64,000 nt of DNA from Manihot esculenta (taxonomy: Eukaryota; Streptophyta; Magnoliopsida; Malpighiales; Euphorbiaceae): assembly GCF_001659605.2 (NCBI RefSeq), contig NC_035169.2, positions 19,220,263-19,284,262 of the forward strand. The letters are read 5' to 3'. Below are positions 2,306-52,563 of the stretch, one piece after another (within the stretch, counting starts at the first letter, position 1; each line of letters begins with the position of its first letter). A program made the position numbers and the translations under genes. Under the pieces are notes generated by a model. That model did no database searches. It saw only the letters and a list, made by a program, of their open reading frames with translations, and was not told the DNA's origin.

Positions 2306-2968
2306 CTACACAGGTGGACTCAAATGAGGGACCAAACATACCTGAGCATAACTATAAACTACTCCCCAAAAACCCCCCTAAAACATCATGAAACAACCAT
2401 AGAAAAACATGCAAAGGAGGCCTGGACAGGGCACTTTCGGCGGCAGGTTCGGCGGCCGAAAGTCCCTCCAGAGCCGAAAGTCAGGCAGGTTCGGCGGCAC
2501 CTTCGGCGGCCGAAACTCCCAGACAGAGACGAAACTCATGCATGTTCGGCGGCACTTTTGGCGGCCGAAACTGCCAGACAGAGACGAAAGTCTCCTTTCG
2601 GGGGCAAGCTTCGGCAGCCGAAAGGCTGCTTCCCCAGCCATGTTCGGCGGCCGAAAGTCCTTCGGCTGCCGAACCTGGTTTCTGCCAAAGGGCAGAAACT
2701 TGGCTCCCTTTGCACATTTCGCCTCCAAACTTATAAAACATGCATCAAACCTATTCTACCACACACAAACACAAGCATACATGTTCCTAGGGGCCTCAAA
2801 CCAACATAAACCCCATCTACAACACATCAAGTAACTCACATTGTTCATGAACATACATTTATACCCATAAACTCCAAAAACATAACCATAACCTAAACAT
2901 GCATTCTAACCCATAGATCTAGTTAAAACTTACTTAAAACATGCAATGAGCTTAAGATCGGCTCTTAC
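2306..2968 (-). other. LTR intron (retained), element D
   Basis: On the element strand the donor is TCAAGAG/GTAAGAG and the acceptor is CCTGTGTAG/GTTCGG. Homologous donor and acceptor flank the extra segment in F, and element H has the two flanks joined with nothing between them. The intron holds the second palindrome cluster. It is inferred to be spliced; no RNA data are available here. Confidence 0.75.
2430..2690. repeat. Palindrome cluster inside D's LTR intron
   Basis: Perfect TTCGGCGGCCGAA copies are at 2448-2460, 2502-2514 and 2643-2655, with several one-base variants between them. They are joined by linkers such as AGAGACGAAAGTC, the complement of the GACTTTCGTCTCT linker of other elements. 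The spurious ORFs here (RRPK, SAAE, FGGR wording) are translations of this repeat. Confidence 0.9.
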
Positions 2969-7743: not shown

Positions 7744-8254
7744 GTAAGAGTGAATCCTTTGTTTTTATCATGTTTTAAATGAGTTTGATGATGGGAAAGG
7801 GGAGTTGTGCTTGAGTATGCATAAGTTGTCCATATTAGGGTGTATGGATCCTATGCTTTGTGTATGGTTGTTGTGTGTTGTTTGTTGGAGTTTAATTTAT
7901 TTGAAGCTCCTTTATGCTTATTGAAGTGTTTATGCATGTTTTAGAAGGGTTAAATGCATGTGTTGAGGTCTGAGCAGGTGATGGAGGGATTGGCAGGCGT
8001 CCTTGTGCACGAAACTGAGTTCTGGATGAACTCAGGTTCGGCCCCCGAAAGTCCAAGTTAGGCCGCCGAACATGCCTGACTTTCGTCTCTGGAAGGGACA
8101 TTCGGCCGCCGAAGGTGCCCCCGAAAGTGCCCTGTCCAGCCTTCCTTTGCATGTTTTCTATGTTTGGTCTAAGGTGTTTTAAGGGGTTTTAAGGGGAGAT
8201 GTTTAGCGGTATGTCCGAGTATGTTTGGTCCCTCATTTGAGTCTATCTGTGTAG
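7744..8254 (+). other. Candidate LTR intron, element A
   Basis: The donor CAAAGG/GTAAGAG and acceptor CTGTGTAG/GCACAG sit at the places homologous to the intron that H has lost. It is 511 bp here, and the same 511 bp in the 3' LTR (15099-15609). It includes the palindrome cluster with the linker GACTTTCGTCTCTGG. Confidence 0.65.
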
Positions 8255-9103: not shown

Positions 9104-9159
9104 TACAGAGTACAGAGTACAGAGTACAGAGTACAGAGTACAGAGTACAGAGTACAGAG
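9104..9159 (+). repeat. TACAGAG minisatellite, 8 units (A 5' LTR)
   Basis: Eight head-to-tail 7-bp units. The 3' LTR of the same element has twelve (16459-16542), so the array has changed length since insertion. Confidence 0.95.
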
Positions 9160-9342
9160 ATAGTGCATGCACAGGTTAAGCCTTGGGCCAGAAAAGAGTT
9201 TTCATTTTCACAAAAAATGTATGATCATGTATGAGATTTACAGGTACACAGAGAGTATAGCAGGCTTGCTACGGGTTCTGGCGGCCTTAAGCCGACCTGA
9301 ATCCTAGCGCCGGTGACGGTCCATTTTGGGGTCGTTACAGAT

Positions 9343-16722: not shown

Positions 16723-17515
16723 ATACATATCATGGCATCCATGATGCATGAACTATGCTAAAACATTCCATTTTCTCAGTGTAAAAGATTAAGTTTAGTT
16801 CTACTCACCTCTGCTCCTCTAGCAGAAAACGGAACTGACTCTGCAACACCTAATCCTGGTGACCTCCTCGATCTCTCGGGTCCAATCCTACATAAAGGGA
16901 CTCGAATGAGGTGTCAAACTAGCTCAATCATCATTTTATAGAACTCCCCATAAACCCTTTAAAACATCCTAGATCAATCACATAAAGCATGCAAAAGAAG
17001 ACTGGACAGAACACTTTCGGCGGCAGGTTCGGCGGCCGAATGTCCTCTCCAGAGCCGAAACTCAAGCACCTTCGGCGGCCGAATCTCTACTTTCGGTTGC
17101 CGAACCCTTTCGGGGGCAAGGTTCGGGGGCTGAAACACACTCCAGAGACGAAAGTCTCTACCCTTCGATGACACCTTCGGCGACCGAATCCTCCTTCCAG
17201 AGCCGAACCTCAAAACTCTCGGGGGTGAGCTTTGGCAGCCAAAGCCATCTCTTAAGGGGTTCGGCGGCCGAATGCACTTTCGGCTGCCGAACCTGAGTTC
17301 ATCCAGAACTCAGCTTCGTGCACAACCAAGCTCCTCAATCCTTTCCACACTCAAAACATGCATAACACAACTCCTTAACTCACATATACTCCAGTATATG
17401 CACAAAGGGGTACAAAACTAACTTACAACCCCAACAAAACAACATAGCATAACACATAAACATGCTTTCATGCATAAACCATCAAAAACACATCTGAAAA
17501 CCTAAACATGCGTCT
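16723..17515 (-). repeat. B 5' LTR, part 2
   Basis: Continues B's LTR after A. On the element strand it carries the donor-like AGAG/GTGAGT (near 16810), the LTR intron acceptor TTTATGTAG/GATTGG (near 16892) and part of a palindrome cluster (about 17020-17290, perfect TTCGGCGGCCGAA near 17027). C is inserted after 17515 inside this intron. Confidence 0.83.
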
Positions 17516-19749
17516 TGTAACGACCCCAAAATGGACCGTCACCGGCGCTAGGATTCAGGTCAGCTTAAGGCTGCCAGAACCCGTAGCAAGCCTGCTATAC
17601 TCTCTGTGTACCTGTAAACTCATACATGATCATACATTTTCTGTGAAAATAAAAACTCTTTTCTGAACCAAGGCTTAACCTGTGCATGCACTATCTTTGT
17701 ACTCTGTACTCTGTACTCTGTACTCTGTACCCCTGACTAGAGCTTGCTCTAGATGGGTTAACTCGTACCTGTTAAGCCTGGTGTTTCACATACAGTAAAA
17801 ACATATATACATATTCAGATCATGTACATCATTACTAAGTCAAGCACCTTTCTAACTTTATACACAACTCTTACATCTCTTTAATATTACATGTCCACTC
17901 TAAGCTATTACATTACAAATCTCTTTACTCTTTACTCTTTTGGCACTCTACTGATCTCCTCTTTACACTGTACACTGAACCTGCAACACTGGGGTTAAGG
18001 GAGTGGGATGAGCTCTATAGCCCAGTGAGTAGAACAGTAAAACATCTCAGTAAAAGATGATCTCATGGAATGCACCATATCACAGACAATCCACATCAAG
18101 AGTAAACCTGTCACCACATAGTCCCAGTAACTCTGTGCCAGGGCGTAGCATCGAGCACCTGGTCTTCCTGTCATATATGTATATGTGTATATAACACCTC
18201 TGTACTTACCATTGCCAGGGCGTAGTCAAAGGCTCCTGGTCTTTACTATACCTGCCAGGGCGTAGTCAAAGGCTCCTGGACTTCTTGTCTGAGACTATTG
18301 GATCATTCAGCATTCACCCACATCCACAAATAACTATGTAATGCAACATATTCGTGGATACTAATGCAATCAACCTATTGCATAATCATGATGCATGAGA
18401 TATGCTAAAACATTTCATTGTGCAAGTAAAAGAGTTAAGTTTCGTTCCACTCACCTCTGGCTACCTGGACTGACTGACTCTGCAGGCTCTGAAAACTCTG
18501 GAGCAGTACTCACTGCTGCTCTCTCTGGTTCCTCTGGTCTGTACCTATACAGATAGACGCAAATGAGGGACCAAACTAGCTTATGACCAACTCTATTAAA
18601 CTTCCCAAGAATTCCTTTAAACTCACTCTAACATTCATGTAAAGCATGCAAAGGAAAGCTGGACAGAACACTTTTGGCGGCAGGTTCGGCGGCCGAAAGT
18701 CCTGTCCAGAGACGAAACTCAAGCACCTTCGGCGGCCGAATCTCTACTTTCGGCTGCCGAACCCTTTCGGGGGCAAGTTTCGGAGGCCAAAAGGCACTCC
18801 AGAGATGAAAGTCTCTAACCTTCGGTGGCACCTTCGGCGGCCGAACTTCCCTCCAGAGCCGAAAGTCCAAAAGCTCGGGGGCAAGCTTGGGCAGCCGAAG
18901 CCACCTCCTCACACCTCCTCAGGGGTTCGGCGGCCGAATGTACCTTCGGCTGCCGAACCTGAGTTCATCAGCAGGGCAGAAACTTGCCCTGCCTCTCGCC
19001 AAATGCACCAAACTCCTCTCCAACTTCACACCGCACTTCCTCAACGTGCATACACTCATGTATATGCTCAAAGGGTTCAAAAACTACCTAAAAACCCCAA
19101 ACATACAACACAAACAACACAGAAACAAGCTCTATGCACAAAATCATCAAAACCTCTCTTTTTAACCTATTCATGCAACTCTCTCCATAAACCCCATAAA
19201 ACCTTCAGAAAACATAAAAACAAGCTCAGGATCTTCACTTACCTCTTGAAACCAAGAAGATGAACGATCCTAACGTGGAGTTTTGGAGCAACTCTTCTTC
19301 AAACTCTCCAAACTTCACAACTTTGAGTTTTTAGCTTAAAACCTTCAAAAGATCACAAAAACGAATCAAATCTTTGCATGATTTCATGAAAACATGAAGA
19401 ACTACTCACAAAGGACAGAGTTTCACCTCAGCAAGTGAAATAAACAGTGCTCTTACCGATTCAACCGACTGAGGGCCATTTATAGGTGGCTGGCCAGACC
19501 ATCTTCGGCGGCCACACGTGAAACCGAAAGCCATGCATGTTCGGCGGCCGAACCTCAACTTCGGCGGCCGAACCTGGCTTTTCTGCCTTGGTTCATTTCA
19601 CTCAAAAACTCAGTTCTTTATACTTTAACACTATGAAACATACCAAAACATTTGAGAAAAACATAAATCTCACCCTTCTAGAAACGTCTGACATCCGAAA
19701 CTCCATCGGAACGAAGAATTCCGATGCTGGACTCTAGCCGGGTATTACA
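17516..19749 (-). repeat. 3' LTR of C (2234 bp)
   Basis: TGTAACGACCCC...GGGTATTACA. On the element strand: U3 palindromes (19580-19500), TGGCCAGCCACC then TATAAATG (plus-strand 19477-19484), leader, intron with donor GTAAGT at 19242 and acceptor at 18545, intronic palindromes (about 18960-18670), hairpin repeats (plus strand about 18136-18281) and a TACAGAG array (about 17697-17729). One hairpin copy has a different loop and bulge (CCAGG-T-GC...GC-CCTGG) with the stem kept. Confidence 0.93.
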
Positions 19750-24934: not shown

Positions 24935-27161
24935 TGTAACGACCCCAAAATGGACCGTCACCGGCGCTAGGATTCAGGTCGGCTTAAGGCCGCCAGAACC
25001 CGTAGCAAGCCTGCTATACTCTCTGTGTACCTGTAAACTCATACATGATCATACATTTTCTGTGAAAATAAAAACTCTTTTCTGAACCAAGGCTTAACCT
25101 GTGCATGCACTATCTCTGTACTCTATACTCTGTACTCTGTACCCCTGACTAGAGCTTGCTCTAGATGGGTTAACTCATACCTGTTAAGCCTGGTGTTTCA
25201 CATACAGTAAAAACATATATACATATTCAGATCATGTACATCATTACTAAGTCAAGCACCTTTCTAACTTTATACACTACTCTTACATCTCTTTAATATT
25301 ACATGTCCACTCTAAGCTATTACATTACAAATCTCTTTACTCTTTACTCTTTTGGCACTCTGCTGATCTCCTCTTTACACTATACACTGAACCTGCAACA
25401 CTGGGGTTCAGGGAGTGGGATGAGCTCTATAGCCCAGTGAGTAGAACAGTAAAACATCTCAGTAAAAGATGATCTCATGGAATGCACCATATCACAGACA
25501 ATCCACATCAAGAGTAAACCTGTCACCACATAGTCCCAGTAACTCTGTGCCAGGGCGTAGCATCGAGCACCTGGTCTTCCTGTCATATATGTATATGTGT
25601 ATATAACACCTCTGTACTTACCATTGCCAGGGCGTAGTCAAAGGCTCCTGGTCTTTACTATACCTGCCAGGGCGTAGTCAAAGGCTCCTGGACTTCCTGT
25701 CTGAGACTATTGGATCATTCAGCATTCACCCACATCCACAAATAACTATGTAATGCAACATATTCGTGGATACTAATGCAATCAACCTATTGCATAATCA
25801 TGACGCATGAGATATGCTAAAACATTTCATTGTGCAAGTAAAAGAGTTAAGTTTCGTTCCACTCACCTCTGGCTACCTGGACTGACTGACTCTGCAGGCT
25901 CTGAAAACTCTGGAGCAGTACTCACTGCTGCTCTCTCTGGTTCCTCTGGTCTGTACCTATACAGATAGACTCAAATGAGGGACCAAACAAGCTTATGACC
26001 AACTCTATTAAACTTCCCAAGAATTCCCTTAAACTCACTCTAACATTCATGTAAAGCATGCAAAGGAAAGCTGGACAGAACACTTTCGGCGGCAGGTTCG
26101 GCGGCCGAAAGTCCTCTCCAGAGACGAAACTCAAGCACCTTCGGCGGCCGAATCTCTACTTTCGACTGTCGAACCCTTTCGGGGGCAAGTTTCGGAGGCC
26201 AAAAGGCACTCCAGAGATGAAAGTCTCTAACCTTCGGTGGCACCTTCGGCGGCCAAACTTCCCTCCAGAGCCGAAAGTCCAAAAGCTCGGGGGCAAGCTT
26301 GGGCAGCCGAAGCCACCTCCTCACACCTCCTCAGGGGTTCGGCGGCCGAATGTACCTTCGGCTGCCGAACCTGAGTTCATTAGCAGGGCAGAAACTTGCC
26401 CTGCCTCTCGCCAAATGCACCAAACTCCTCTCCAACTTCACACCACACTTCCTCAACGTGCATACAGTCATGTATATGCTCAAAGGGTTCAAAAACTACC
26501 TAAAAACCCCAAACATACAACACAAACAACACAGAAACAAGCTCTATGCACAAAATCATCAAAACCTCTCTTTTTAACCTATTCATGCAACTCTCTCCAT
26601 AAACCCCATAAAACCTTCAGAAAACATAAAAACAAGCTCAGGATCTTCAGTTACCTCTTGAAACCAAGAAGATGAACGATCCTAACGTGGAGTTTTGGAG
26701 CAACTCTTTTTCAAACTCTCCAAACTTCACAACTTTGAGTTTTTAGCTTAAAACCTTCAAAAGATCACAAAAACGAATCAAATCTTTGCATGATTTCATG
26801 AAAACATGAAGAACTACTCACAAAGGACAGAGTTTCACCTCAACAAGTGAAAGAAACGGTGCTCTTACCGCTTCAACCGACTGAGGGCCATTTATAGGTG
26901 GCTGGCCAGACCACCTTCGGCGGCCACACGTGAAACCGAAAGCCATGCATGTTCGGCGGCCAAACCTCAACTTCGGCGGCCGAACCTGGCTTTTCTGCCT
27001 TGGTTCATTTCACTCAAAAACTTAGTTCTTTATACTTTAACACTATGAAACATACCAAAACATTTGAGAAAAACATAAATCTCACCCTTCTAGAAACGTC
27101 CGACATCCGAAACTCCATCGGAACGTAGAATTTCGATGCCGGACTCTAGCCGGGTATTACA
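24935..27161 (-). repeat. 5' LTR of C (2227 bp)
   Basis: Closely matches the 3' LTR; 7 bp shorter by one TACAGAG-type unit, plus scattered substitutions (for example GTCGGC/GTCAGC after the start). The TATA box is at plus-strand 26889-26896 (CATTTATA). Confidence 0.94.
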
Positions 27162-27890: not shown

Positions 27891-29189
27891 TCACTGAGGA
27901 GGCTGAGGAGGTGGCACTCCAGATGACTGCTGAAGGAAGTGCAAAATCTGTCTCTGCTGCTCGATCAGGGTCTGCTGCTGGTCTGTAAGTCGTGCTAACT
28001 ACTGCTCCATCTGAGTCTGGCGATCAGATATCTGAGTCTGGTGATCAGACATCTGAGCCTCGCGATCAAACATCTGAGCAACCTGCACCTTCAAACGACC
28101 CATGGCATCATACAGATCAGATGCAGTCCGAGAAGATGTACCCTGCTCGGTGGACCGCCCGGTACTAGCATCGCCTCTGGGAGCTCGATCTGTCTCAAGA
28201 TCAGCAGGAGAAACATCATCTGACTCCTCATCAGAAACATCATGTGCCTATGCTGCTGCATGTGCTGCTCTGCGGGCTGCAAAATCTCTCCTAGAATTAT
28301 AAAATTCATTGCCTCTCCTAGTCAGACCCATGGGGAGGAGGGTAGCCTCAGTGTAAAGGGTATACTCACTAGACAAGGGTAAGGCAGACTCAGTACCTAG
28401 GTCAACCCCTAGAGCTCGAAGAAGAAGAGTAAGATGACGACCAAAGGGGAGACAACCTCGACTCAGCCTAAGGGATTCTACTATAGAGTGAATCATAATA
28501 TGTGGCAGGTTAAGGGCTTGACCCTCTAGCAGACAGGACACTACAAACATGTCAGAGTAGGAGAGTGCAGTCCTATGACCCGCTCTAGGGAGAATCTCAT
28601 AGGTGACTATGTGGTGAACAACTTTAGGGAGAGTGGTGAGGTCACAGGCCTTAAGCCTAGAGGGCTCCTCACGATCTACATCTCCTGAAATAATCCTAGT
28701 CTGGTGAAGGGAAGAGACCTCACCAGTGATCCACTTATGAGTGGTGGAGACAAAAGCCCCAGAGTTGGAGACACCTAGATGCCGAGCAATGATGTCAGGA
28801 GTGAGGAGAACTCTTTGACCATTTACAAAACTGACCAGGTGGGGGGAAGTATGACGGGTAAAGGTGTGTAGGTTTGCATAGAACTCCCTAACAATCCTAG
28901 GATGGCTGTCTGATGGAGTGATAAGAAGGTGCTCCCAACCCTGGACTTTGAAAGGCTGAAGGAATCCCTGAGAGCGAAAGAGCTGAACAATATTAGCATG
29001 AACTGTTCTCCCAGGATGAACAAACCTGAGAGAAAAAGGCTGAAAAGCTGGATCCTCCTCTCTAACTATAGGAAACTCAAAGGGGGGAGAGGCAGGAGGG
29101 TCTGGGGAGGGGGACCTAGGAGCCTCAGACTGTCTACTGGATTGACCTCTAAAATATGGATGAATACGAGCAGTGGATTTTCTACCCAT
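27891..29189 (-). pseudogene. ORF3 of copia element S (plant transposon protein domain-like), two stops
   Basis: The first open segment encodes 313 aa starting MGRKSTARIHPYF, with REFYANL, a hydrophobic core and SCLLEGQALNLPHIM. This resembles the plant protein family labelled 'putative plant transposon protein' in databases (from memory, not searched). It ends at TAG (28248-28250), but the frame continues as acidic and then Gln-rich sequence (heptad-like repeats of QTQISDRQTQM). This is cut by a second TAG (27999-28001, directly after a CAG) and ends at TGA (27891-27893), giving about 432 codons in all. Function is unknown; the position matches the env-like ORF of Sireviruses. No membrane segment or signal peptide was seen. 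Confidence 0.72.
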
Positions 29190-29474
29190 TTTTAAACACA
29201 GCAGCTAAAGAGGCAATGATACAGAAGAGACAAGCCCAAAAACAGAAAGCTAACTATAAGCAACATTGCCACAAAAACTTAGCCTATAAACAACACAAAG
29301 GCCAACCAATAAGCATAATAACTCTCACATAACAACTAATCATCCATTATTGCACCATATGTAATATAAAGAGAGCTAACAATATGAAATATAAAGAGAG
29401 CAATAAAACAAAAAAAATAATAACAGGCAGTTTTTATATAAATTCCCAGCTAATAACAAGATAACCCAGCTAAT

Positions 29475-29745
29475 CATAACAATAAGATAACCCAGCTAAT
29501 CAGTTATTGCACCATGTCCATATTTAAAACCAGAAATAATAATAATAATAATAATAATTCTGATTGCTTCATAATTTGCAAAAGCACAAACAATTATGTA
29601 AAACAAAACCAAACAAATAAAACAACCCAGCTAAACATAACAATAAGATAACCCAGCTAATCAGTTATTGCACCATGCCCATATTTAAAACCAGAAATAA
29701 TAATAATAATAAAAAAAAATTCTGATTGCTTCATAAATTGTAGAA
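29475..29745. repeat. Tandem duplication, about 160-bp period, in the S spacer
   Basis: CATAACAATAAGATAACCC begins a copy at about 29475 and another at about 29635. Both run through GTTATTGCACCATG, an AAT microsatellite (29534-29558 and about 29695-29710) and TTCTGATTGCTTCATAA. The spacer around it is A-rich, with repeated ACCCAGCTAA motifs. Confidence 0.85.
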
Positions 29746-30149
29746 CCAAAAAAAAAACGGTACACCAAAACAAACCAAATAACATAACCCAGCTAACAAC
29801 ATGTATATATTAAGAAAAAATATACCCGGCAGATTTTATATGCCAAAAAAAAATTATCAAAACCACAGTCCTAGGCAGATAGGAGATGAAAAGACAATAA
29901 CAAATCAACAGAAAATAAGGAAAAAAACCCATAAAAATAGAGAGAGAAAACAAAAACTTACCCAAATGAAAAAGCTCCAAACGGGTTTCTTGAGAAGAAA
30001 AGAAACTGATTTTTGGGTTTTCAGACAAGAAAAAAGAGTAAAAATGGAGGTTTTTGAGGGAAAATGGCTCAGAAACAGCAGATTTTTGAGAGGGAGAACG
30101 AAGGGAGCTTCGGGGAGAGAGAGAAAGCTTCGGGGGAGAGAGAGAGTCG

Positions 30150-30340
30150 CGCGAGGAAGACGATGAGCTGTCGCGGGGGCTTTTAAGGAGCGCGCAGTTT
30201 CGGCGGCCGAACTATGCTTCGGCGACCGAAAATGGGCAATTTTAGGAGGCCGAACTTAACCTTTGGCGGCCGAAATGTAACAAGGTTCGGCGGCCGAATA
30301 AAATGTTAAGCGGCCGAAAAAGAGAAACGAAAAAGACAAA
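30150..30340 (-). promoter_or_regulatory. Candidate internal promoter for ORF3 in S
   Basis: On the element strand: palindromes at 30298-30286 and 30211-30199 (perfect TTCGGCCGCCGAA) plus variants, then CTTAAAAG (about 30187-30180). A CT-rich tract (CTCTCTCTCTCC, about 30150-30100) and a good donor TTTGG/GTAAGTTTT (near 29963) follow, before ORF3 at 29189. The layout of palindromes, TATA-like site, pyrimidine patch and leader intron looks like a plant promoter. This is inference only. Confidence 0.4.
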
Positions 30341-30531
30341 AAAATTTCCCGCTTTTCATATTGCCCTTGAAATTGAAGGTTAGGGGGCCGAATGTGCCTC
30401 CGAACCTGGAATTTTAGGCTTCCCTCTCCCTTTCTTTTTTTTTTTTTTTTAAAAAAAAATTAAAACTATATCAAACAATGTGACAGACTTTCAAAAAAGA
30501 TAATCAAAATAAAAAAATAATAAAAATACAC

Positions 30532-33694: not shown

Positions 33695-35608
33695 TCAAAC
33701 ACTTTTAGGTATCCAAATGTACTTGGGTCCTTGGGGGTTAGTCATTCCACTATCCAATTTCCACATGCTACCATATCCAAGATGCAATTTTCTAATAGTA
33801 CACTTATAATTGGTATGACCAAACTTGCCACAATAGTGACAATGACCATTAAACCTTCTTATTCTAGGTCCATAGGTGAGTGAGTGTGTTTGAGTTCTCA
33901 TGTGGCCATTTCTCCTTTATTTATTAAAAGCATGTGAGCAAGAGATATGATTAGAGTGGTGATTTTGTGAACTAGAAGTGTGTGTTCTATAATGATCATT
34001 TCTCTTATATGCAAATTGCCTAGGTGTGTGTCTTATATGAGTATTGTAACTAGTGGATTTGTGTACATGTGCATTCCTTATAGTCATATTACTACTAGAA
34101 ACTTTGGGCATACTTCCATTAGAGCTAGATACCTTAGGTTCATTTGAGTTAGTAGCTTTAACAAAAATGGTTTTAGAAGAGTTTGCTTGAGTTGATTTAT
34201 CATAGCCAAGGCCATACTTGATGCTAGGAGACCTTTGAGAGTCTAATATTTCATCAAGTTTGTCCTTGCCTTTTAAAAATTTTGAAAGAGAATTTTTCAA
34301 TTCAAGGATTTCATTTTTCAAATTTTTATTTTCTAGTGAGAGCTCATCTAAGGATTTTTGTAAAGAATTATTTGAGGGTAAAGGTTCCTTAGGTGAGTTC
34401 TCACTTTCCCTTTTAAAGCTAGCTAACTCACATTTCAAAATTTTATTTTTCTTATGACTCTTTTCAAGCTCATCATTCATTAATTTTAAAGCACCTACAA
34501 GTTCATCATATGAAAACTCAACAACATCATCACATAAAGTAGAGTCATCAAGTATAGTTACCTCATCGGAGCTTTCCTCTAGAGCCATGAAGCACATGTT
34601 GGCAATTTCATCCCCAACGTCCTCCTCTTCGATATCACTTGACTCATCCCATGTTGCTTTGAAGGCCTTCTTCTTGAACTTTTTGATAGGCTTATTCAAC
34701 TTGGGACAATCCACTTTGTAGTGACCCAGCTTATTGCACTCATAGCAAATGACTACTTCCTTTTTGCTTGATTCACCCATTTCCTTTCTAAAATTCTTCC
34801 TTGGGATGAACTTTTTATTTTGGAGAAGCAACTTCCTTATCCTCCTAGTTACCAAGGCCAATTCTTCCTCACTTATCTCTTTTTCTTCCTCACTAGTATC
34901 TTTGGAGGCTACCCTTAGAGCAATGTTCTTTTTCATCTTGCTAGGTTCCTCCACTTGCTCTCTCTTTAGAGTCATCTCATAGTCAATGAGATTCCCCAAG
35001 AGTTCATCCAATTGCACTTTGCTGAAGTCTTTGGCATCCTTTAAAGAAGTTACCTTTGGTAGCCATTCTTTAGGTAGACATCTAAGGATTTTCTTCACCA
35101 ACTCTTCATTTGTGAATGTCTTCCCAAGAGATTTCATCCCTCCAATGATCTCAATGAACCTATCATACATTTGGCTAATAGTTTCATCGGATTTCATTTT
35201 GAACAATTCATATTGGTAAATGAGGGATTCCATCTTGTTTTCTTTGACTTGATTAGTTCCTTCATGAGTGACAACCAAAGCATCCCAAATTTCCTTTGCG
35301 ATAGACTTCATGCACACTTTGTTGTACTCACTTCTACTAAGAGCACAAAATAAGATGTGAATGGCTTTGTCATTTAGGGCTACCCTTCTCTTCTCTAGTT
35401 CACTCCATTCACTCTTAGGTTTTTGCTCTTGATTTCCATCTATCACTCTTGTGGGAAAGAAGGGACCATTCTCTACAATATCCCACAAATAAACTCCTTC
35501 CGATTTGAGGAAATATTACATTCTATTTTTCCAATATAGAAAGTCATTTCCATCAAAGAAAGGTGGTCTCACAACCGATTGACCTTCTTGAGAATTGAGG
35601 GCTGCCAT
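33695..35608 (-). pseudogene. Copia Gag, broken, element S
   Basis: The likely original ATG is 35608 (MAALNSQEGQ), 47 bp from the PBS. A stop at about 35516-35518 interrupts ...YWKNRM, then a 523-codon open frame follows. That frame has the UBN2-type Gag domain (to about residue 175), a Glu/Lys-rich stretch, the zinc knuckle CYECNKLGHYKVDCPK, an acidic segment and a long coiled coil (ELSLENKNLKNEILELKNSL). After another stop (near 33917) the same frame gives a second knuckle, CHYCGKFGHTNYKC. Two knuckles separated by a coiled coil fit Sirevirus Gag. Confidence 0.88.
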
Positions 35609-35655: not shown

Positions 35656-35667
35656 GCTCTGATACCA
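35656..35667 (-). other. Primer binding site, element S
   Basis: GCTCTGATACCA on the plus strand (TGGTATCAGAGC on the element strand), 2 bases from the LTR. Confidence 0.92.
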
Positions 35668-36147
35668 CTTGTTGTCCCTTGAAGCAACCCAAGAGGGGGG
35701 GTGAATTGGGTTTATAAAAAATTTAAGGCAAAAGAACAAATTAGAAGACAATAAGGAAGAAGATAATCAACACAAGAATTTATAGAGGTTCAGCTATCTC
35801 AAGCCTACGTCCTCTCCTCAAGGTCCACCTTGAGAGTTCAACTCCACTATCAAATCTTCTTTGGGTGAAGATTAAAACCCTTACAATCTTAGAGCAAGCC
35901 TTTGCTCTTTACAAATCTCTTTTTCACTCAAGAGCAATTCTTTGCTCAATGCCACACTCACAACAATAGAATCTCTCAACAACCTTTACTCACTCTAAAA
36001 AGCCAACCAATTACAACTCAAAACAAACTTTCAAGAAATCAATGCTTTGGCTCAAGGTTTTGAGAGAGAGAGAATGAAAAATGCTATAATCTCAATAAAT
36101 ATTTGCTTAGATGGCTGTTGTAACCTTTTCATATCAAAAACTCATTG

Positions 36148-36155
36148 TATTTATA
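36148..36155 (-). promoter_or_regulatory. TATA box in the S LTR
   Basis: TATAAATA on the element strand in the context CTATAAATACAATGAG, about 90-200 bp downstream of the palindrome cluster. Confidence 0.6.
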
Positions 36156-36324
36156 GTTCAGTCATAAATATGGCCGTTGGGAGTGCATTAAATGCAAATA
36201 GAGTCGTTTATGTTCAGAAATAATCGTTATATCTTTCTCAGAAAAATTCAGGTTCGGCGGCCTAAGCTAAAGTTCAGCGGCCGAACCAATTGAGGTGAAG
36301 AACATCACTCTTTAAAAAAGGACT

Positions 36325-36730
36325 TTCGGCGGCCTTAAGTCATAGTTCGGCGGCCGAACTTGTGTGACTTTCGTCTCTGTCCCTCTCTTTCGGAAGCCGA
36401 ACTTTTGGCTTCGGAGGCAGACTTAAAAGCACACTTTCGGCGGCCGAAGGTAATGTTCGGCGGCTGAACATAGGTGACTTTTGCCTCTGTCCTTAACTTT
36501 TGGAAGCCAAACATTTAGCTTAGGGAGCAAACCACCTTCGGCGGCCGAAGGCCAATGTTCGGCGGCCGAACATACAGGACTTTCGTCTCTGTTCCTCACT
36601 TTCGGAAGCCGAATGATACACTTTAGGGGGCAGGCTGAAAACACACTTTCGGCGGCCGAAAGTCAATATTCGGCGGTCGAACATGTGGGACTTTCGTCTC
36701 TGTCTCTGACTTTCGGAAGCCGAAAGATGA
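36325..36730. repeat. Palindrome-linker array in the copia LTR (about 110-bp unit, 4 units)
   Basis: Units start at about 36325, 36436, 36537 and 36658. Each has TTCGGCGGCCGAA (perfect at 36346-36358, 36436-36448, 36537-36549 and 36658-36670) and a second copy or variant about 20 bp on. These are followed by the linker GACTTTCGTCTCTGT, TTTCGGAAGCCGAA, and an AGGGGGCA-type spacer. The same palindrome and linker occur in the gypsy LTRs. Confidence 0.9.
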
Positions 36731-37212
36731 CTTTAGGGGCACAAAAAATAAATCTTTAAATCTTTGAAAAATCATAACTTAGGCTGTAAAATTCCTTTTT
36801 TCAATCCGTCTGAATTTTTGTAACCCATATTTTTAGATCTTTAATTTTGATAAAGAATAATTTCAAAATCGCTTCTTTTGGAAAATTTCATTTTAGTCCC
36901 TAAAAGTCAACTACTTAAAATTTGGCCATATATAAAAAAAAACTTTTAGAGATGAAAGAAATCTTGAGCCATCACAATTAATTAATTGAAATTCACAATG
37001 AATAGAATTTAACAAAGTATAAACAAAAATACTTTCTTATCCCTTTCTTGTGGTATGCTTCCAAAATAGCCATTTTTTCCTTTTGAGATTGAAGCAATTT
37101 CGTTCTTGTTAGCAAGGGACCTACAAGCTCAACATAAACACTTTTGAAGATAATTAGTAGCATACCAATTGTTTATTAATCATCAAAACAAGGATTAGAA
37201 CATTTAGGTTCA

Positions 37213-37775
37213 ACGGAAACCATAAAAAATAACCTATTAAACATCAACAAATATGAATTGTGTATAGTGATAATAGGATTGAATCCACAGAGAATTTTCA
37301 CTAAGAATTTTCAAATAATGACTAGGAAAAATAAATAGTAAAAATAAAAAGGGAGAGGGTTTTGATAATGAGTAAAAATAAAAATTAAAGCAATTAAAGA
37401 AAGCGATAATTAAAAGAGAAATAAATCAATATAAACAAGTTCTGGTTGAAGTATAGGATCCATTTTAGTTTGAAAATTGATCATCGATACAAAAGGAATT
37501 TTGTTCATTTCAATATATTAGTTATAGTTATAGAAGACGCTCCACATAACTAATCTCTCTATATATTTTAAATTAATTAAGAAATGTTCGCTAATTAACT
37601 CCTAGCCAACAAATCACCCAAAGAACATCTTTGATATTTTAATTTATCAACTATTTTAACTATTAGAGAGATCTAATTATAACTGACTAGCCGTATGGTG
37701 AGTTTGAGTTAGATTATACAACTTTTTAGTTGTTACACTAATTGTTACTTGTGTTTGAATAACCTAAATAATTAC
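37213..37775. other. AT-rich sequence between S and F, no gene seen
   Basis: 563 bp of low-GC DNA containing GATTGAATCCACAGAGAA and GCTCCACATAACTAATC. No long frame. It joins to 60051 onward when F (with its TSD) is removed. It may be an older unclassified repeat. Confidence 0.6.
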
Positions 37776-38340: not shown

Positions 38341-38992
38341 GTAAGCTTAGATCCAATCTTTCTTGCATGTTTTAAACTAGTTTTATGAAGATCTATGGGG
38401 TAGAAATGCATGATAGGTTATTGTTATGTTTATGGGTTTATGTATGTTTATGAACAATGTGGGTTGTTTGATGTGTTGTAGATGGGGTTTAGGATAGTTT
38501 GAAGCCCCTAGGAGCTTGTATGCTTGAGTATGCATGTTGCAGAATAGGAAAATGCATGATTGAATGTGTTGGGAGGCGTTTATGCATGTTGAGCTGAGTT
38601 TCTGGCCTTTTTGGGAGAAACTAGGTTCGGCAGCCGAAGGTTCTTTCGGCCGCCGAACCTGCCTGTGGTAGCATGAATCGGCTGCCGAACCCTGCCCCCG
38701 AAAGATGACTTTCGGCTCTAGAAGGGACTTTCGGCCGCCGAAGGTGCCGCCGAACATGCATGAGTTTCGTCTCTGGAGGGAACCTTTGGCCGCCGAAAGT
38801 GCCGCCGAAGGTGCATGACTTTTGGTCCTGGAGGGCCTTTCGGCCGCCGAACCTGCCGCCGAAAGTGCCCTGTTCAGCCCTCCTTTGCATGTTTTCTATG
38901 GATGTTTTAAGGTGTTTTAGGGGGTTTTTGGGGAATATTTTTAGAGTCATGTTCATGGATGTTAGGTCCCTCATTTGAGTCCACCTGTGTAG
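38341..38992 (+). other. LTR intron (retained), element F
   Basis: Donor CTTCAAGAG/GTAAGC and acceptor CCTGTGTAG/GTTCGG. The two flanks are joined directly in H (51476/51477 and 58522/58523). It is 652 bp and carries the second palindrome cluster. Confidence 0.82.
38620..38880 (+). repeat. Palindrome cluster inside F's LTR intron, partly tandem (about 60-bp unit)
   Basis: TTCGGCCGCCGAA occurs near 38646, 38729, 38838 and as a TTGGCCGCCGAA variant near 38785. Most are followed by a half-site GTGCCGCCGAA, then GCATGA, then a TTTCGTCTCTGGAGGGA-like linker. About three units lie in succession. Confidence 0.9.
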
Positions 38993-40459
38993 GTTCGGAC
39001 CCGAGGAACCGAGGACCCCAGCAGTGAGATAGCTGCTTTCGAGTCTTGTCAGAGCTAGCCAGAGGTGAGTGGAATAACTCTCTATGTTTTCAAAGTAAAT
39101 AATGAACGTTTTAGCATGACTCACGCATCATGAATGGCATGAGATATATTAGGGTGCTTGCATTAGAATTCACGAATATGTCGCATTGCACATTATGTTG
39201 TTGATGTGGATGAATGTTGAATGATCCATTAGCCCTTATATGGTAAGACATGATAGACTATGGAAGTCCGGGTGAGCCTGCACTACGCCCCCGGCATGAA
39301 TGGATATGTATGTTATGCTATGGAAGTCCGGGTGAGCCTGCACTACGCCCCTGGCATGATTAGACTGTATGGAGGGCTAAGTGGTGACAAGTTCTGTAAT
39401 ACCCGGCGAGAGTCCGGCATCAGAATTCTTATCGTCCGATAGAATCTAGGATGTCGGAATCTTTAGAAGGGTAAGATTTATGTTTTTCTTAAGTCATATT
39501 GTATGTTTTAATGTTTTCAAGTTCAAATGAAAAGAGGTTTTGAAAGAAAAGAACCAAGGCAGAAAAGCCAGGTTTGGCCGCCGAAGGTGACATTCGGCCG
39601 CCGAACATGCATGGTTTTCGGTTTCACGATAGGCCGCCGAAGGTGGTCTGGCCAGCCACCTATAAAAGGCCCTCAGTCGGCTGAAAGGATAAACATCACC
39701 GTTTTCTTTCACTTTCTGATGTGAGACCCTGTCCTTTTTTAGTTTTCTTCATGTTTTCATCACATCATGAATGTTTGAGTGAGTTGAAGGGGATTCTTGG
39801 GGAGTTTCATAGAGTTGTTCATAAGCTAGTTTGGTCCCTCATTTGAGTTTATCTGTGCCTACATAGACCAGAGGAACCAGAGAGAGCAGCAGTGAGTACT
39901 GCTCCAGCGTTTACAGAGCCTGCAGAGTCAGTCCAGAGAGCCAGAGGTGAGTGAAACTAAACTGAATTCTTTTAATTGAACGAAATATTTTTAGCATCAT
40001 TCATGCATCATGAGTATACAGTAGGTTGTTTGCATTAGACTCCACGAATATGTTGCATTGCATAGTTATTTGTTGATGTGGGTGAATGCTGAATGATCCA
40101 ATAGTCACTGAGATAAGTCCAGGAGCCTCTGACTACGCCTTGGCAGGTATAGAAGTCCAGGAGCCTCTGACTACGCCCTGGCAGGTATAGGAATGTAATA
40201 CCCGGCGAGAGTCCGGCATCGGAATTCTTGTCGTCCGATAGAATCCAGGATGTCGGAATCTTTAGAAGGGTAAGATTTATGTTTTTCTAAAGTCATAAAG
40301 TATGTTTTCATGTTTTTAAGGTAAATGGAACTAAGTGTTTGCAAGAAAAGAACCAAGGCAGAAAAGCCAGGTTCAGCCGCCGAAGGTGACATTCGGCTGC
40401 CGAACATGCATGGCTTTCGGTTTCACGTGTGGCCGCCGAAGGTGGTCTGGCCAGCCACC

Positions 40460-40467
40460 TATAAAAG
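40460..40467 (+). promoter_or_regulatory. TATA box, G 5' LTR
   Basis: TATAAAAG directly after GGCCAGCCACC. The same motif pair is found in D, C, E1 and H. Confidence 0.75.
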
Positions 40468-40702
40468 GCCCTCAGTCGGTTGAAAGGATAAACATCACCA
40501 TTTTCTTTCACTTTCTGAGGTGAGACCCTGTCCTTTTTGAGTTTTCTTCATGTTTTCATCAAATCATGCAAAGGTTTGATTGAGTTTTTATGGATTTTGA
40601 AGGTTTTGAGCTAAAAACACAAAGTTGTGAAGTCTGGAGAGTTTGAAGGAGAGTTGCTCCAAAACTCCACGTTAGGATCGTTCATCTTCTTGGTTTCAAG
40701 AG

Positions 40703-41400
40703 GTAAGTGAAGATCCTGAACTTGTTTTTATGTTTTCTGACGGTTTTATGTGGTTTTGGGAGAGAGTTGCATGAATAGGGTTAAAAAGAGAGGTTTTGAT
40801 GATTTTGTGAGAAAAGTTGTGTATGTGTTATGCTTTGTTGTTTGTTGGGGGGTTTTAGGTAGGTTTTGACCCCTTTTGAGCATATACTTAGGAGTATGCA
40901 TGTTGAGGAGTTGAGGTGTGTGAGTTGGAGGAGGATTGGTGTGTTTTGGCGTGAGGCAGAGCAAGGTTCTGCCTTGCTGATGAACCCAGCTTCGGCCGCC
41001 GAAGAAAGGTTCGGCCGCCGAACGTGCTGAGGAGGTGGCTTCGGTTGCCCAAGCTTGCCCCCGAGCTTTTGGACTTTCGGCTCTGGAGGGGAGTTTCGGC
41101 CGCCGAAGGTGCCACCGAAGGTTAGAGACTTTTGTCTCTGGAGTGCCTTTCAGCCCCCGAAACTTGCCCCCGAAAGGGTTCGGCTACCGAAAATAGAGAT
41201 TCGGCCGCCGAAGGTGCATGAGTTTCGTCTCTGGAGAGGACTTTCGGCCGCCGAACCTGCCGCCGAAAGTGTTCTGTCCAGCCTTCTTTTGCATGCTTTG
41301 CATGGATGTTGAGTGAGTTTAAGGGGATTCTTGGGGAGTCTAATAGAGTTGTTTTTAAGCTAGTTTGGTCCCTCATTTGAGTTTATTTGTGTCTACACAG
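40703..41400 (+). other. Candidate LTR intron 1, element G
   Basis: Donor TTCAAGAG/GTAAGTGA (near-consensus) and acceptor GTCTACACAG/ACCAG. It is 698 bp and contains the palindrome cluster (about 40990-41275). It is homologous in position to the intron lost in H. Confidence 0.65.
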
Positions 41401-41478
41401 ACCAGAGGAATCAGAGAGCAGCAGTGAGTACTGCTCCAGAGTTTACAGAGCCTGCAGAGTCAGTCCAGATAGCCAGAG

Positions 41479-41988
41479 GTGAGTGGAACTAAACTTAATT
41501 CTTTAAATTGAGCAATGGAATGTTTTTAGCATATTTCATGCATCATGGTTATGCAGTAGGTTGATTGCATTAGAATCCACGAATATGTTGCATTGCATCG
41601 TTATTTGTTGATGTGGGTGAATGCTGAATGATCCAATAGTCACTGAGAGAAGTCCAGGAGCCTTTGACTACGCCCTGGCAGGTATAGAAGTCCAGGAGCC
41701 TTTGACTACGCCCTGGCAAGTATAGTAAAGTCCAGGAGCCTTTGACTACGCCCTGGCAATGGTAAGTACAGGTGTTATATACACATATACATATATGAGA
41801 CAGGAACTCCAGGTGTTATATACACGCCCTGGTGTGAGATACTGGGACTATTTGGTGACAGGTTTCCCCTTGCTGTGGATTGTCTGTGATATGATGCATT
41901 ATATACACTCATGTTTTAATGACTTGTTTTATTGTTCTACTCACTGGGCTATAGAGCTCATCCCACTCCCTTAACCCCAGTCTTGCAG
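41479..41988 (+). other. Candidate LTR intron 2, element G
   Basis: Donor GCCAGAG/GTGAGTGG. The acceptor is a pyrimidine-rich stretch ending TCTTGCAG/GTTCAG, preceded by CTACTCAC, a possible branch site. It is 510 bp and encloses the hairpin array. The same donor and acceptor wording is seen in A, B, C, D, F and H, but no copy in this window lacks the interval, so splicing is less certain than for intron 1. Confidence 0.45.
41653..41832 (+). repeat. Hairpin repeat array, G 5' LTR
   Basis: Copies at 41653-41680, 41691-41718 and 41731-41758 (CCAGG-A-GC...GC-CCTGG), and an altered copy at 41808-41832 whose loop is replaced by GTTATATACAC copied from the neighbouring spacer while the CCAGG/CCTGG stem is kept. 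The 3' LTR array is about 49134-49317. Confidence 0.88.
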
Positions 41989-42447
41989 GTTCAGTATACA
42001 GTGTACAGGGAAGTCCAGCAGAGTACAAGAAGAGAGAAGAGATGTGTAATAGAATATTGTGGACATGTAATAGTCAAGAGATGTAACAGTTGTGTAAAGT
42101 TCGAGTTGTGCTTGACTTAGTTATGTTTGTGTTGTAAATCTATTGTATACATGGTCTGTTTATATAACTGTTTTCCAGAGTATGTGAAAAACCAGGCTTA
42201 ACAGGTATGAGTTAACCCATCTAGAGCAAGCTCTAGTCAGGGGTACAGAGTACAGAGTACAGAGATAGTGCATGCACAAGTTAAGCCTTGGTTCAGAAAT
42301 GAGTTTTTATTTTCACAGAAAATGTATGATCATGTATGAGATTTACAGGTACACAGAGAGTATAGCAGGCTTGCTACGGGTTCTGGCGGCCTTAAGCCGA
42401 CCTAAATCCTAGCGCCGGTGACAGTCCATTTTGGGGTGGTTACAGAT

Positions 42448-47674: not shown

Positions 47675-49940
47675 TGTAATACCCGGCGAGAGTTCGGTAT
47701 CGGAATTCTTGTCGTCCGATAGAATCCAGGATGTCGGAATCTTTAGAAGGGTAAGATTTATGTTTTTCTAAAGTCATAAAGTATGTTTTCATGTTTTTAA
47801 GGTAAATGGAACTAAGTGTTTGCAAGAAAAGAACCAAGGCAGAAAAGCCAGGTTCGGCCGCCGAAGGTGACATTCGGCCGCCGAACATGCATGGCTTTCG
47901 GTTTCACGTGTGGCTGCCGAAGGTGGTCTGGCCAGCCACCTATAAAAGGCCCTCAGTCAGTTGAAAGGATAAACATCACCGTTTTCTTTCACTTTCTGAG
48001 GTGAGACCCTGTCCTTTTTGAGTTTTCTTCATGTTTTCATCAAATCATGCAAAGGTTTGATTGAGTTTTTATGGATTTTGAAGGTTTTGAGCTAAAAACA
48101 CAAAGTTGTGAAGTTTGGAGAGTTTGAAGGAGAGTTGCTCCAAAACTCCACATTAGGATCGTTCATCTTCTTGGTTTCAAGAGGTAAGTGAAGATCCTGA
48201 ACTTGTTTTTATGTTTTCTGATGGTTTTATGTGGTTTTGGGAGAGAGGTGCATGAATAGGGTTAAAAAGAGAGGTTTTGATGATTTTGTGACAAAAGTTG
48301 TGTATGTGTTATGCTTTGTTGTTTGTTGGGGTTTTTAGGTAGGTTTTGACCCCTTTTGAGCATATACTTGGAGTATGCATGTTGAGGAGTTGAGGTGTGT
48401 GAGTTGGAGGAGGATTGGTGTGTTTTGGCGTGAGGCAGAGCAAGGTTCTGCCTTGCTGATGAACCCAGCTTCGGCCGCCGAAGAAAGGTTCGGCCGCCGA
48501 ACGTGCTGAGGAGGTGGCTTCGGTTGCCCAAGCTTGCCCCCGAGCTTTTGGACTTTCGGCACTGGAGGGGAGTTTCGGCCGCCGAAGGTGCCGCCGAAGG
48601 TTAGAGACTTTCGTCTCTGGAGTGCCTTTCAGCCCCCGAAACTTGCCCCTGAAAGGGTTCGGCTACCGAAAATAGAGATTCGGCCACTGAAGGTGCATGA
48701 GTTTCGTCTCTGGAGAGGACTTTCGGCCGCCGAACCTGCCGCCGAAAGTGTTCTGTCCAGCCTTCTTTTGCATGCTTTGCATGGATGTTGAGTGAGTTTA
48801 AGGGGATTCTTGAGGAGTCTAATAGAGTTGTTCTTAAGCGAGTTTGGTCCCTCATTTGAGTTTATCTGTGTATACACAGACCAGAGGAACCAGAGAGAGC
48901 AGCAGTGAGTACTGCTCCAGAGTTTACAGAGCCTGCAGAGTCAGTCCAGATAGCCAGAGGTGAGTGGAACTAAATTTAATTCTTTAAATTGAGCAATGGA
49001 ATGTTTTTAGCATATTTCATGCATCATGGTTATGCAGTAGGTTGATTGCATTAGAATCCACGAAAATGTTGCATTGCATCGTTATTTGTTGATATGGGTG
49101 AATGCTGAATGATCCAATAGTCACTGAGATAAGTCCAGAAGCCTTTGACTACGCCCTGGCAGGTATAGAAGTCCAGGAGCCTTTGACTACGCCCTGGCAG
49201 GTATAGTAAAGTCCAGGAGCCTTTGACTACGCCCTGGCAATGGTAAGTACAGGTGTTATATACACATATACATATATGAGACAGGAACTCCAGGTGCCTT
49301 TAACTACGCCCTGGTGTGAGATACTGGGACTATTTGGTGACAGGTTTCCCTTTGCTGTGGATTGTCTGTGATATGATGCATTCCATATGCTCATGTTTTA
49401 ATGACTTGTTTTATTGTTCTACTCACTGGGCTATAGAGCTCATCCCACTCCCTCAACCCCAGTCTTGCAGGTTCAGTATACAGTGTACAGGGAAGTCCAG
49501 CAGAGTACAAGAAGAGAGAAGAGATGTGTAATAGAATATTGTGGACATGTAATAGTCAAGAGATGTAACAGTTGTGTAAAGTTCGAGTTGTGCTTGACTT
49601 AGTTATGTTTGTGTTGTAAATCTGTTGTATACATGGTCTGTTTATATAACTGTTTTCCAGAGTATGTGAAAAACCAGGCTTAACAGGTATGAGTTAACCC
49701 ATCTAGAGCAAGCTCTAGTTAGGGGTAGAGAGTACAGAGTACAGAGTACAGAGTACAAAGATAGTGCATGCACAGGTTAAGCCTTGGTTCAGAAATGAGT
49801 TTTTATTTTCACAGAAAATGTATGATCATGTATGAGATTTACAGGTACACAGAGAGTATAGCAGGCTTGCTACGGGTTCTGGCGGCCTTAAGCCGACCTG
49901 AATCCTAGTGCCGGTGACGGTCCATTTTGGGGTCGTTACA
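47675..49940 (+). repeat. 3' LTR of G (2266 bp)
   Basis: TGTAATACCCGGCG...GGGTCGTTACA with TATAAAAG at 47941-47948. It differs from the 5' LTR by scattered substitutions and the TACAGAG-type array (five units here, two there). The fourth hairpin is complete here (CCAGGTGCC...GCCCTGG). Confidence 0.95.
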
Positions 49941-50877: not shown

Positions 50878-51235
50878 TGTAATACCCGGCTAGACTCCGG
50901 TATCGGAATCCCTACCGTCCGGTGGGACCTCGGATGTCGAAAACCTCTAGAAGGGTAAAACTATGATTTTATGAAATGTTTTCAAGTATTTCATGTTTTT
51001 AAGTAAGAAATTAAATGAGTTTTTGCATGAAAAATCTTTGGAGAAAAACCCAGGTTCGGCCGCCGAACTGCGAAGTTCAGCCGCCGAACATGCATGCGTT
51101 TTGGAGGCACGTTAGGCCCCCGAAAGCATGAGTGAGGGAAGTCAAGGTTCGGCCGCCGAACCTCATGTTCGGCCGCCGAACATTTGCATGGATGCGGAGG
51201 CACATTCGGCCCCTGAACGTGGTCTGGCCAGCCAC

Positions 51236-51243
51236 TATAAAAG
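51236..51243 (+). promoter_or_regulatory. TATA box, H 5' LTR
   Basis: TATAAAAG about 65 bp after the last perfect palindrome-type site, right after GGCCAGCCAC. The equivalent in the 3' LTR is 58282-58289. Confidence 0.75.
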
Positions 51244-51470
51244 GGTCCCTTACCCGAAAATGGGCGAGCTTTTTCTCCCCATTTCGGCCAAGGTGAGCAT
51301 TCCGCCATCCTTCCCCAATCTTGAATTTTTCCTTCCTTTTTCCCGGATCTTTACAAGTTTATAACTTTGTTTTTGAAGATCTTGGAGCTTAGAACGAGTT
51401 TTGGAGCTTGGAGACCAAAAGTTGGAACTTCTCCCATCTCCAAGTTTAGATCTCCTCAACCCTCGATCTT

Positions 51471-51482
51471 CAAGAGGTTCGG
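51471..51482 (+). other. Exon-exon junction left by intron loss (H 5' LTR)
   Basis: CAAGAG joined to GTTCGG. In D and F these two hexamers are separated by a 652-663-bp GT...AG segment. The same junction is at 58517-58528 in the 3' LTR. Confidence 0.85.
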
Positions 51483-51754
51483 ACCTGAGGAACCGAGACC
51501 CCCGGTTGTGAGATAGTCGTTCAGAGTTCGTTGTTAAAGCTTCAGTTACCAGGTGAGTGGAACAACCCCTTAAGCTTTAAAGTAAATGAATAAATGAATG
51601 AATCATAAAGCATTGCCCATGCATCATTATGCCATGCAATATTAGGTTGTTTGCATTAGAATTCACGAATATGTTGCATTGCATACTTTGTTGTTGATGT
51701 GGATGAATGTTGAATGATCCATTAGCCCTTGTATGTCATGATAGCCTATGTGAG

Positions 51755-51845
51755 TCCAGGTGTGCCTGCTACGGCTCTACGCCCCTGGCACTATGACAGA
51801 TTATGGAAGTCCGGGTGTGCCTGCTACGGCTCTACGCCTCCGGCA
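51755..51845 (+). repeat. Two hairpin repeats, H 5' LTR
   Basis: Copy 1: CCAGG-TGT-GC...GC-C-CCTGG. Copy 2: CCGGG-TGT-GC with 3' side CTCCGG here and CCCCGG in the 3' LTR. The loops contain CTACGGCTCTAC. The 3' LTR copies are at 58801-58836 and 58856-58891. Confidence 0.9.
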
Positions 51846-52563
51846 TGTATAAGTAAGAAAGATAGGGGCTAAATGGTGACAAGTTCATCCTTGTTGTGAA
51901 ATGTTTGTGTTATGGTGCATACATGAAAGCATAAATAAGAAAAAGCTATATGATAATAATAATAATAAAATGAATAATAATATACCTAAAAATGGAGGAA
52001 TTAAAACAAATGTTTTTTTTAGTTTCTGCTCACTGGGCTCTAGTAGCTCACCCCACTCCCTCTATCCCCAGAGTTGCAGGTACAGGATAGATCAAGAAGT
52101 CGGCTAGAGTGAAGCCAAGTCATGTATGTTGTAATAGATAGTAGTGGACATGAACATGATGTAATGAGTATTTATGACCATGTAATGTAATAAATGATTT
52201 GATGATGTATTGAGGATTATAGTAGTGCTTGACCTAGAGGTGTGTGAATCCCCATTATGAACAGAGTGTTTAATGAGTAATGATGTTAATGACTATGATT
52301 ATCCAAGCTGATATGTATGATGATGATACCCCATTGGAGTATTTGATGAGGACTCCAGTGTGGGGTTTATGTATGATTTTGTGCATGCACAGGTTTTGCT
52401 TGGATAAGAGAAAAGAAAATTTTTACAGATCATGTATATGTTGTTATGTATGGGATTCCACAGGTTTACAGGAGGTATGTAGGCTTGCTACGAGTCCCGG
52501 CGGCCTTAAGCCGATCTGGATCCTAGCGCCGGTAACGGGTCGGATTTCCGGGTCGTTACAGAG

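Follow-up and report, generated by a model that had tools for sequence, protein, structure and literature searches.

A short palindrome-and-linker block shared by unrelated LTR retrotransposon families of cassava

How do LTRs of two retrotransposon superfamilies come to carry the same palindrome beside the same linker? The question is raised by a 64,000-nucleotide stretch of the cassava (Manihot esculenta) genome, referred to here as the window, in which an initial annotation had noticed the palindrome TTCGGCNGCCGAA together with the linker ACTTTCGTCTCTG in the LTR of a copia element (S) and in the LTRs of several gypsy elements, and had suggested sequence exchange or capture. Our analysis confirmed and strengthened that observation. 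The reading we favour, with a probability of roughly 0.6, is that a cis-regulatory block of about 80 bp has moved between unrelated cassava LTR families and has been multiplied in each of them.

The window contains 64 exact palindromes, against none in 100 dinucleotide shuffles, and 25 linker sites with up to two mismatches (shuffles: mean 1.65, maximum 5). All 64 exact palindromes are located within LTRs, LTR fragments or a cluster upstream of the third open reading frame (ORF3) of the copia element, which together make up 24.8 kb, and none was found in the other 39 kb of the window. With up to two mismatches allowed there are 134 sites, only one of which (at 30865) is outside these regions. 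Across the 640,357,471-bp cassava assembly, in which the window occupies C9:19220263-19284262, TTCGGCNGCCGAA has 333,204 exact sites, the reversed-pattern control giving 4, and the combination GCCGAA-N8-linker has 8,849 sites (4,514 + 4,335), for which the control gave 0. Twenty random 2-kb places in the genome, of 100 drawn, held 28 exact palindromes, all of them in five places and none in the other 15; four of these five are gypsy LTRs like those of the window and one (L077) is a probable LTR. The possibility that the motif is equally dense in random intergenic DNA fails on the genome-wide count and on the sampled places.

Element S belongs to the Ty1/copia superfamily, with gag_2, copia integrase and RVT_2 domains and INT placed before RT (PF14223, PF00665, PF25597, PF07727). 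Its gag ORF (33917-35515, minus strand) matches a Manihot esculenta protein at 91% identity. The 5' LTR (35670..37215, minus strand) has the form TGTTGAACC...AGGGACAACA, with a different first base in the window copy, and the PBS is at 35656-35667. The LTR ends were set by 30 fetched copies, the best 30 of 40 scored from 668 candidates, which include the window's own copy and in several cases are the two LTRs of one element; the LTR start was seen in 23 of these 30. Matching 5-bp TSDs flank all five of the LTR pairs that have both ends visible, and the PPT was found in other copies. Three copies read as solo LTRs, with a TSD at L029 and L031 and none at L023. The 3' LTR of the window copy was not found in the window.

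The array in this LTR (36253..36740, minus strand, longer than the 36325..36730 originally marked) comprises 13 palindromes with at most two mismatches, arranged in four units of about 110 bp, with the linkers on the plus strand and therefore antisense to the element. As originally reported, palindrome and linker occur together here, three units having an exact linker and one a linker with two mismatches. An array is present in all 30 best-matching copia copies, with between 7 and 17 boxes per copy; the linker in these copies is always antisense and never sense. A TATA box, CTATAAATA (36148..36156, minus strand), follows the array at a distance of about 95 bp in the copia sense; the exact string recurs in 24 of the 30 copies, and in those 24 its distance from the array is identical. 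We also considered that the copia cluster might be a later gypsy-LTR insertion with its own TSD, and rejected this, as the array is in 30 of 30 fetched copies and no gypsy LTR sequence surrounds it.

Both LTRs are present in the gypsy elements A (7199-9339 and 14555-16722, LTR identity 100.0%, TSD ATACA), B (17516-19749 and 24935-27161, minus strand, 98.5%, flanks not identical), C (40194-42444 and 47675-49940, 97.8%, TSD AGGAA) and D (50878-52560 and 57924-59606, 99.2%, TSD GACAT). Elements E, F and G are single or interrupted LTRs, G with the TSD AGTTC, and H (16723-17515), I and J are LTR fragments. The order of Pfam domains places RT before INT in A, in the scanned part of C and, across two ORFs, in B; matches to the chromodomain profile PF00385 in A (E 2.2e-4) and C (3.1e-4) are both below the curated cut-off, and none is listed for B. 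The region 37776-60050 is a nest of insertions, with C within LTR G, G and D within LTR F, and matching TSDs for C, G and D. The LTRs of A to G have mutual identities of 60.7-93.3%, so that they are related and cannot be counted as independent cases.

Gypsy LTRs hold two clusters of boxes: cluster 1, free of linkers, stands before a TATA-type box, and cluster 2, which bears the linkers, is located downstream. In C, cluster 1 (40372..40440, plus strand) consists of palindromes only and stands 18 bp before CTATAAAAG at 40459, and in D (51055..51217, plus strand) it stands 17 bp before CTATAAAAG at 51235. A TATA-type box was found behind cluster 1 in nine gypsy LTR copies (of B, C, D, E, F and G), and in each of them 16-18 bp separate it from the end of the last palindrome, a distance that may be inherited, since these LTRs are related. 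No TATA-type box was found behind cluster 1 in A. Fragment H differs from the other LTRs in that its CTATAAA stands about 87 bp beyond the last cluster-2 box, in the intron-equivalent part, and other TATA-like strings are present elsewhere in gypsy LTRs. The proposal that a cluster sits just upstream of the TATA box holds for the palindromes of gypsy cluster 1, the copia LTR and the copia ORF3, and does not hold for the linkers. Those of gypsy are intronic, further downstream in the LTR leader, and those of copia are upstream of the TATA box, so that no fixed relation links them to the promoter. Linkers are present in A, B, C, E, F and H; D, with its LTRs and TSD intact, has neither cluster 2 nor linker.

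The segment that we call the leader intron behaves, to judge from its sequence, as a spliceosomal intron. Its donor is conserved as CAAGAG/GTAA in most LTRs (CAAAGG/GTAAG in A), with an acceptor TGTGTAG/G or similar. The donor-to-acceptor interval could be delimited in A5, A3, B5, C5, C3, E and F (5 and 3 denoting the 5' and 3' LTR); the pattern used missed B3, whose acceptor is visible, and fragment H is without such a donor. By conservation, the intron of A (7744..8254, plus strand) contains three palindromes and one exact linker (8037-8113), that of the B 5' LTR (25957..26654, minus strand) contains 8 of 11 palindromes and three linkers, and that of the C 5' LTR (40703..41400, plus strand) contains 8 of 11 palindromes and all three linkers (cluster 2, 40991-41255). 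In E (2306..2968, minus strand) 6 of 10 palindromes and three linkers are intronic, and the interrupted LTR of F (38341..38992, plus strand; GTAAGC...TGTGTAG) has 6 of 10 palindromes and both linkers within the intron. GT-AG ends together with exact absence of the segment from D are seen for F, E and L051/L052, the introns of A, B and C being recognised by donor and acceptor conservation only.

The corresponding position in D is an intronless junction (51470..51484, plus strand): CAAGAG, ending at 51476, runs straight into GTTCGG, and the intron that F, E and L051 have at this place is missing. The spliced junction is GATCTTCAAGAGGTTCGGAC, as against GATCTTCAAGAGGTAAG. L051 and L052, which keep the intron, share about 94.5% identity with D upstream of the junction and 86.6% downstream of it. 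Since D is without exactly the segment that F, E and L051/L052 have, it would most simply descend from a spliced RNA, as a transposed copy flanked by the TSD GACAT. It would stand as a clean natural example of leader-intron loss from an LTR. Element G is now also without cluster 2. Its missing segment (39785/39766) was considered as a similar splice-like loss, an explanation we rejected because the gap begins upstream of the donor and its far end falls within the intron.

The unit shared between the superfamilies is larger than the module originally described. A frame of palindrome, 8 bp, linker, 9 bp and palindrome occurs at 11 of the 25 window linkers, namely in all four copia units and in seven gypsy copies (both LTRs of A, B and C, and H). 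One such frame, at 36346..36401 on the plus strand, has a palindrome at 36346-36358, 8 bp, the linker at 36367-36379, 9 bp, and a palindrome variant at 36389-36401. The half-site CCGAA 8 bp before the linker is kept at a further seven linkers and absent at seven of the 25, and a palindrome with at most three mismatches follows every linker (25/25), at a distance of 9 bp in 17 cases and 8 bp in eight. A further palindrome 21 bp off is common to gypsy A, B and C, copia and L077, and sets of three palindromes spaced at 21 and 43 bp are seen in all of these, in copia in reversed order. The composite strings are TTCGGCCGCCGAA-N8-linker and TTCGGCGGCCGAA-N8-linker; among 30 composite loci on C1, L046, L047, L050 and L056 have three exact palindromes in the frame. 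When palindromes and half-sites were masked, and copia units u3 and u4 were compared with five gypsy clusters and L077, none of 200 shuffles reached the observed value in any of the 12 tests; units u1 and u2 were scored without shuffles, u2 being the lowest against most targets. The rest of the copia LTR, beyond the array, did not match the gypsy LTRs, in keeping with the earlier remark that the superfamilies share no other LTR sequence. Among six LTRs the palindrome columns are 87.3% identical and other columns 67.8%, in an alignment whose columns were chosen for matching and are thus biased upward.

A third family extends this comparison. L077 has the same frame and no match to the LTRs of the window. 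Together with L092 it defines a 1,788-bp repeat, presumably of the Tat/Athila kind, which ends in ...CA and is flanked by GCTAA; GCTAA-TG occurs at three possible starts, of which the nearest was taken. It is probably a solo LTR. Its right flank contains a copia-type integrase stretch (E 1.2e-15), with no such match in the left flank, and its linker would be antisense if TATTTAAAGG marks the promoter. The fixed frame, the match that survives masking of the palindromes and the identical frame in this unrelated repeat together show that the block in copia, in chromovirus-type gypsy and in L077 is homologous, and is not explained by convergence of the palindrome alone. The copia-gypsy homology depends neither on the status of L077 as an LTR nor on the number of half-sites. 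Exchange of the block between LTR families, as had been proposed, is well supported by the same evidence. Two other loci, L048 and L049, are 6.9 kb apart, have mostly G-centred boxes around the linker and do not match the LTRs of the window; L049 matches gypsy internal sequence, and the two are a further gypsy family.

The orientation of the block differs between families. Gypsy elements carry the linker in sense orientation, whereas in copia it runs antisense and is upstream of the TATA box. On the sense strand of the elements the central base of the 64 exact window sites is C in 53, A in 6, T in 5 and G in none, and that of 168 sites in the fetched copia copies is C in 156, T in 6, G in 5 and A in 1. 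On the linker strand, for boxes within 400 bp of the linker at the 30 C1 loci, the counts are C 111, A 18, T 5 and G 4. Relative to the linker, boxes are therefore mostly C-centred in gypsy and G-centred in copia, which means that simply inverting the gypsy block would not yield the copia block. This strand bias also implies that the box is not strand-symmetric, and the earlier idea of a dimeric host factor, bound as a symmetric dimer, is weakened by it. The GCCGCC core that had been likened to the GCC-box is present in C- and G-centred boxes, hence in the 53 C-centred sites of the window, and absent from A- and T-centred boxes.

In the favoured explanation the block has the structure palindrome-21-palindrome-8-linker-9-palindrome, built of TTCGGC(C)GCCGAA boxes, and these boxes would be the targets of a single trans-acting DNA-binding protein, in the simplest case a host transcription factor that reads the GCC-box-like core. 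Once bound, this protein would boost transcription from the nearby TATA box, and the intronic arrays of gypsy would serve as an enhancer downstream of the promoter, removed from the RNA by splicing. A promoter function of the arrays is plausible from their position. CpG observed/expected ratios outside the palindromes are 0.27-0.67 in the LTRs and 0.95 in the region upstream of ORF3, and the involvement of a trans-acting factor is suggested by this persistence of CpG-rich boxes in CpG-poor LTRs, by the position of the arrays and by the greater conservation of palindrome columns between families. Comparison of the C5 and C3 LTRs reveals CpG-type changes within palindromes, so that single copies do decay. 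This decay tells against the favoured explanation, as do the differing places of the linker-bearing cluster, the relatedness of the gypsy LTRs, the deviating CTATAAA of H, the change of central base relative to the linker between gypsy and copia, and the 7 of 25 linkers that have no CCGAA half-site 8 bp before them. The GCC-box is bound by AP2/ERF factors, and in view of the GCCGCC core, factors of the ERF type come first as candidates. The likeness is one of sequence, residing in the core of the C-centred box; in cassava this core is embedded in a 13-bp near-palindrome, and the A- and T-centred boxes do without it. The block was likely exchanged by template switching or by recombination between nested elements, either of which is possible given that nested insertions of these families adjoin in the window.

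The copia element also has a third ORF behind pol (28248..29204, minus strand), which matches PF20167 (Transposase_32). This domain stands behind copia domains in all four Citrus proteins chosen for having PF20167, two of them below the curated cut-off, and a search for relatives of ORF3 gave one cassava protein, matching over 28% of the query. A second array, free of linkers (30199..30392, minus strand), is located between pol and this ORF and ends 10 bp before CCTTAAAAG; an array occupies the equivalent place upstream of ORF3 in all three other copia copies checked. Interpretation of this cluster, near 30 kb in the window, as the copia 3' LTR was rejected on account of that placement and of its recurrence in those three copies. 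Within 28248-30392, ORF3 is preceded by the box array, then by CTTAAAAG, which is TATA-like, and by a leader rich in CpG and a donor GGGTAAG, and a 161-bp tandem duplication (29463-29796) lies between the ORF3 promoter region and ORF3. An extra ORF between pol and the 3' LTR, with a promoter-like region, is likewise described for gene23 of maize Grande in the relevant passages of PMC7264820; gene23 is antisense, whereas the copia ORF3 is sense and its upstream region carries LTR boxes.

VANDAL elements are DNA transposons. The target arrays of their VANC proteins, as characterised in the pertinent sections of PMC5735166, are dense tandem runs of short motifs in the same orientation that expand and contract and are found in upstream regions and introns, and by analogy they would be the closest mechanistic parallel to the cassava arrays. 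The boxes might accordingly be VANC-type targets, several LTR families hitch-hiking on one such protein, perhaps the product of the copia ORF3. We consider this unlikely. The shared layout, the predominance of C as the sense-strand central base (53 of 64 sites in the window, 156 of 168 in copia copies) and the possession by ORF3 of an array of its own all speak for it. Against it, the gypsy ORFs that were scanned (A whole, B in two parts, part of C) have only the usual gag-pol domains, and the VANC motif is described in those sections of PMC5735166 as rare in other TE families, whereas the cassava block is common to several families of LTR retrotransposons. A broader version, in which several unrelated cassava LTR families depend on one trans-factor, an activator or anti-silencing protein possibly encoded by a TE (the copia ORF3 being a candidate), and trade its arrays among them, seems to us slightly more doubtful still. 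If it were true, the genome would contain a third of a million near-identical target sites.

As unlikely as the VANC-type reading, in our view, is the notion that the block is a non-functional minisatellite, spread by exchange and replication slippage and conferring nothing on its carriers. The variation in box number among copia copies (7-17) would fit, as would the intact LTRs and TSD of D without cluster 2 and the present lack of cluster 2 in G. Slippage without function does not readily account for CpG-rich boxes that persist in otherwise CpG-poor LTRs (0.27-0.67), or for arrays placed before TATA-type boxes in gypsy, copia and ORF3 alike. A role at the RNA level, as a splicing or packaging signal in the leader, is very improbable. 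It would fit the intronic place of most gypsy boxes (8 of 11 in each of B5, C5 and C3, 6 of 10 in both E and F, though only 3 of 8 in A); against it, the copia and cluster-1 arrays are upstream of the TATA box, and D transposed without an intronic array. We give equally little credence to convergence, with the boxes built separately in each family and the linker matching by chance, for while a palindrome alone can arise repeatedly, the 8/9 and 21/43 spacings are identical in unrelated repeats and no shuffle equalled the masked matches.

The preferred explanation, a cis-regulatory block that has moved between families, has a partial precedent in the U3 tandem-repeat enhancers of plant LTR retrotransposons such as tobacco Tnt1 (named in PMC3601003), likewise tandem short boxes within an LTR upstream of the TATA box. 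The cassava block differs from enhancers of this type in spanning copia, chromovirus-type gypsy and a further repeat, in occurring in both orientations and in being present also in an LTR intron. Should the arrays be functional, it would follow that LTR retrotransposons pass control sequences from one superfamily to another without the accompanying coding parts, and that a single regulator could govern a large part of the transposons in a crop genome. A search of the open-licence PMC literature for the exact motif strings found no paper containing either palindrome, and the titles and abstract openings of topic literature in the same collection describe no such shared block. Viral contigs, scanned once for the composite, gave 0 matches, and part of the copia array, translated and compared with 1,037 candidates for annotated relatives, gave no match.

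Other tandem repeats are present in the gypsy LTRs. A GTACAGA heptamer repeat (9103-9159 and 16458-16539) has 8.1 copies in one LTR of A and 11.7 in the other, the two being otherwise near-identical, and is a fast minisatellite of this LTR. Repeats of 38-42 bp (CCAGGAGCC...CTACGCCCTGGCA) are found further downstream in gypsy LTRs, at 8518-8631, 15873-15986, 40115-40190, 41648-41759 and 49131-49239.
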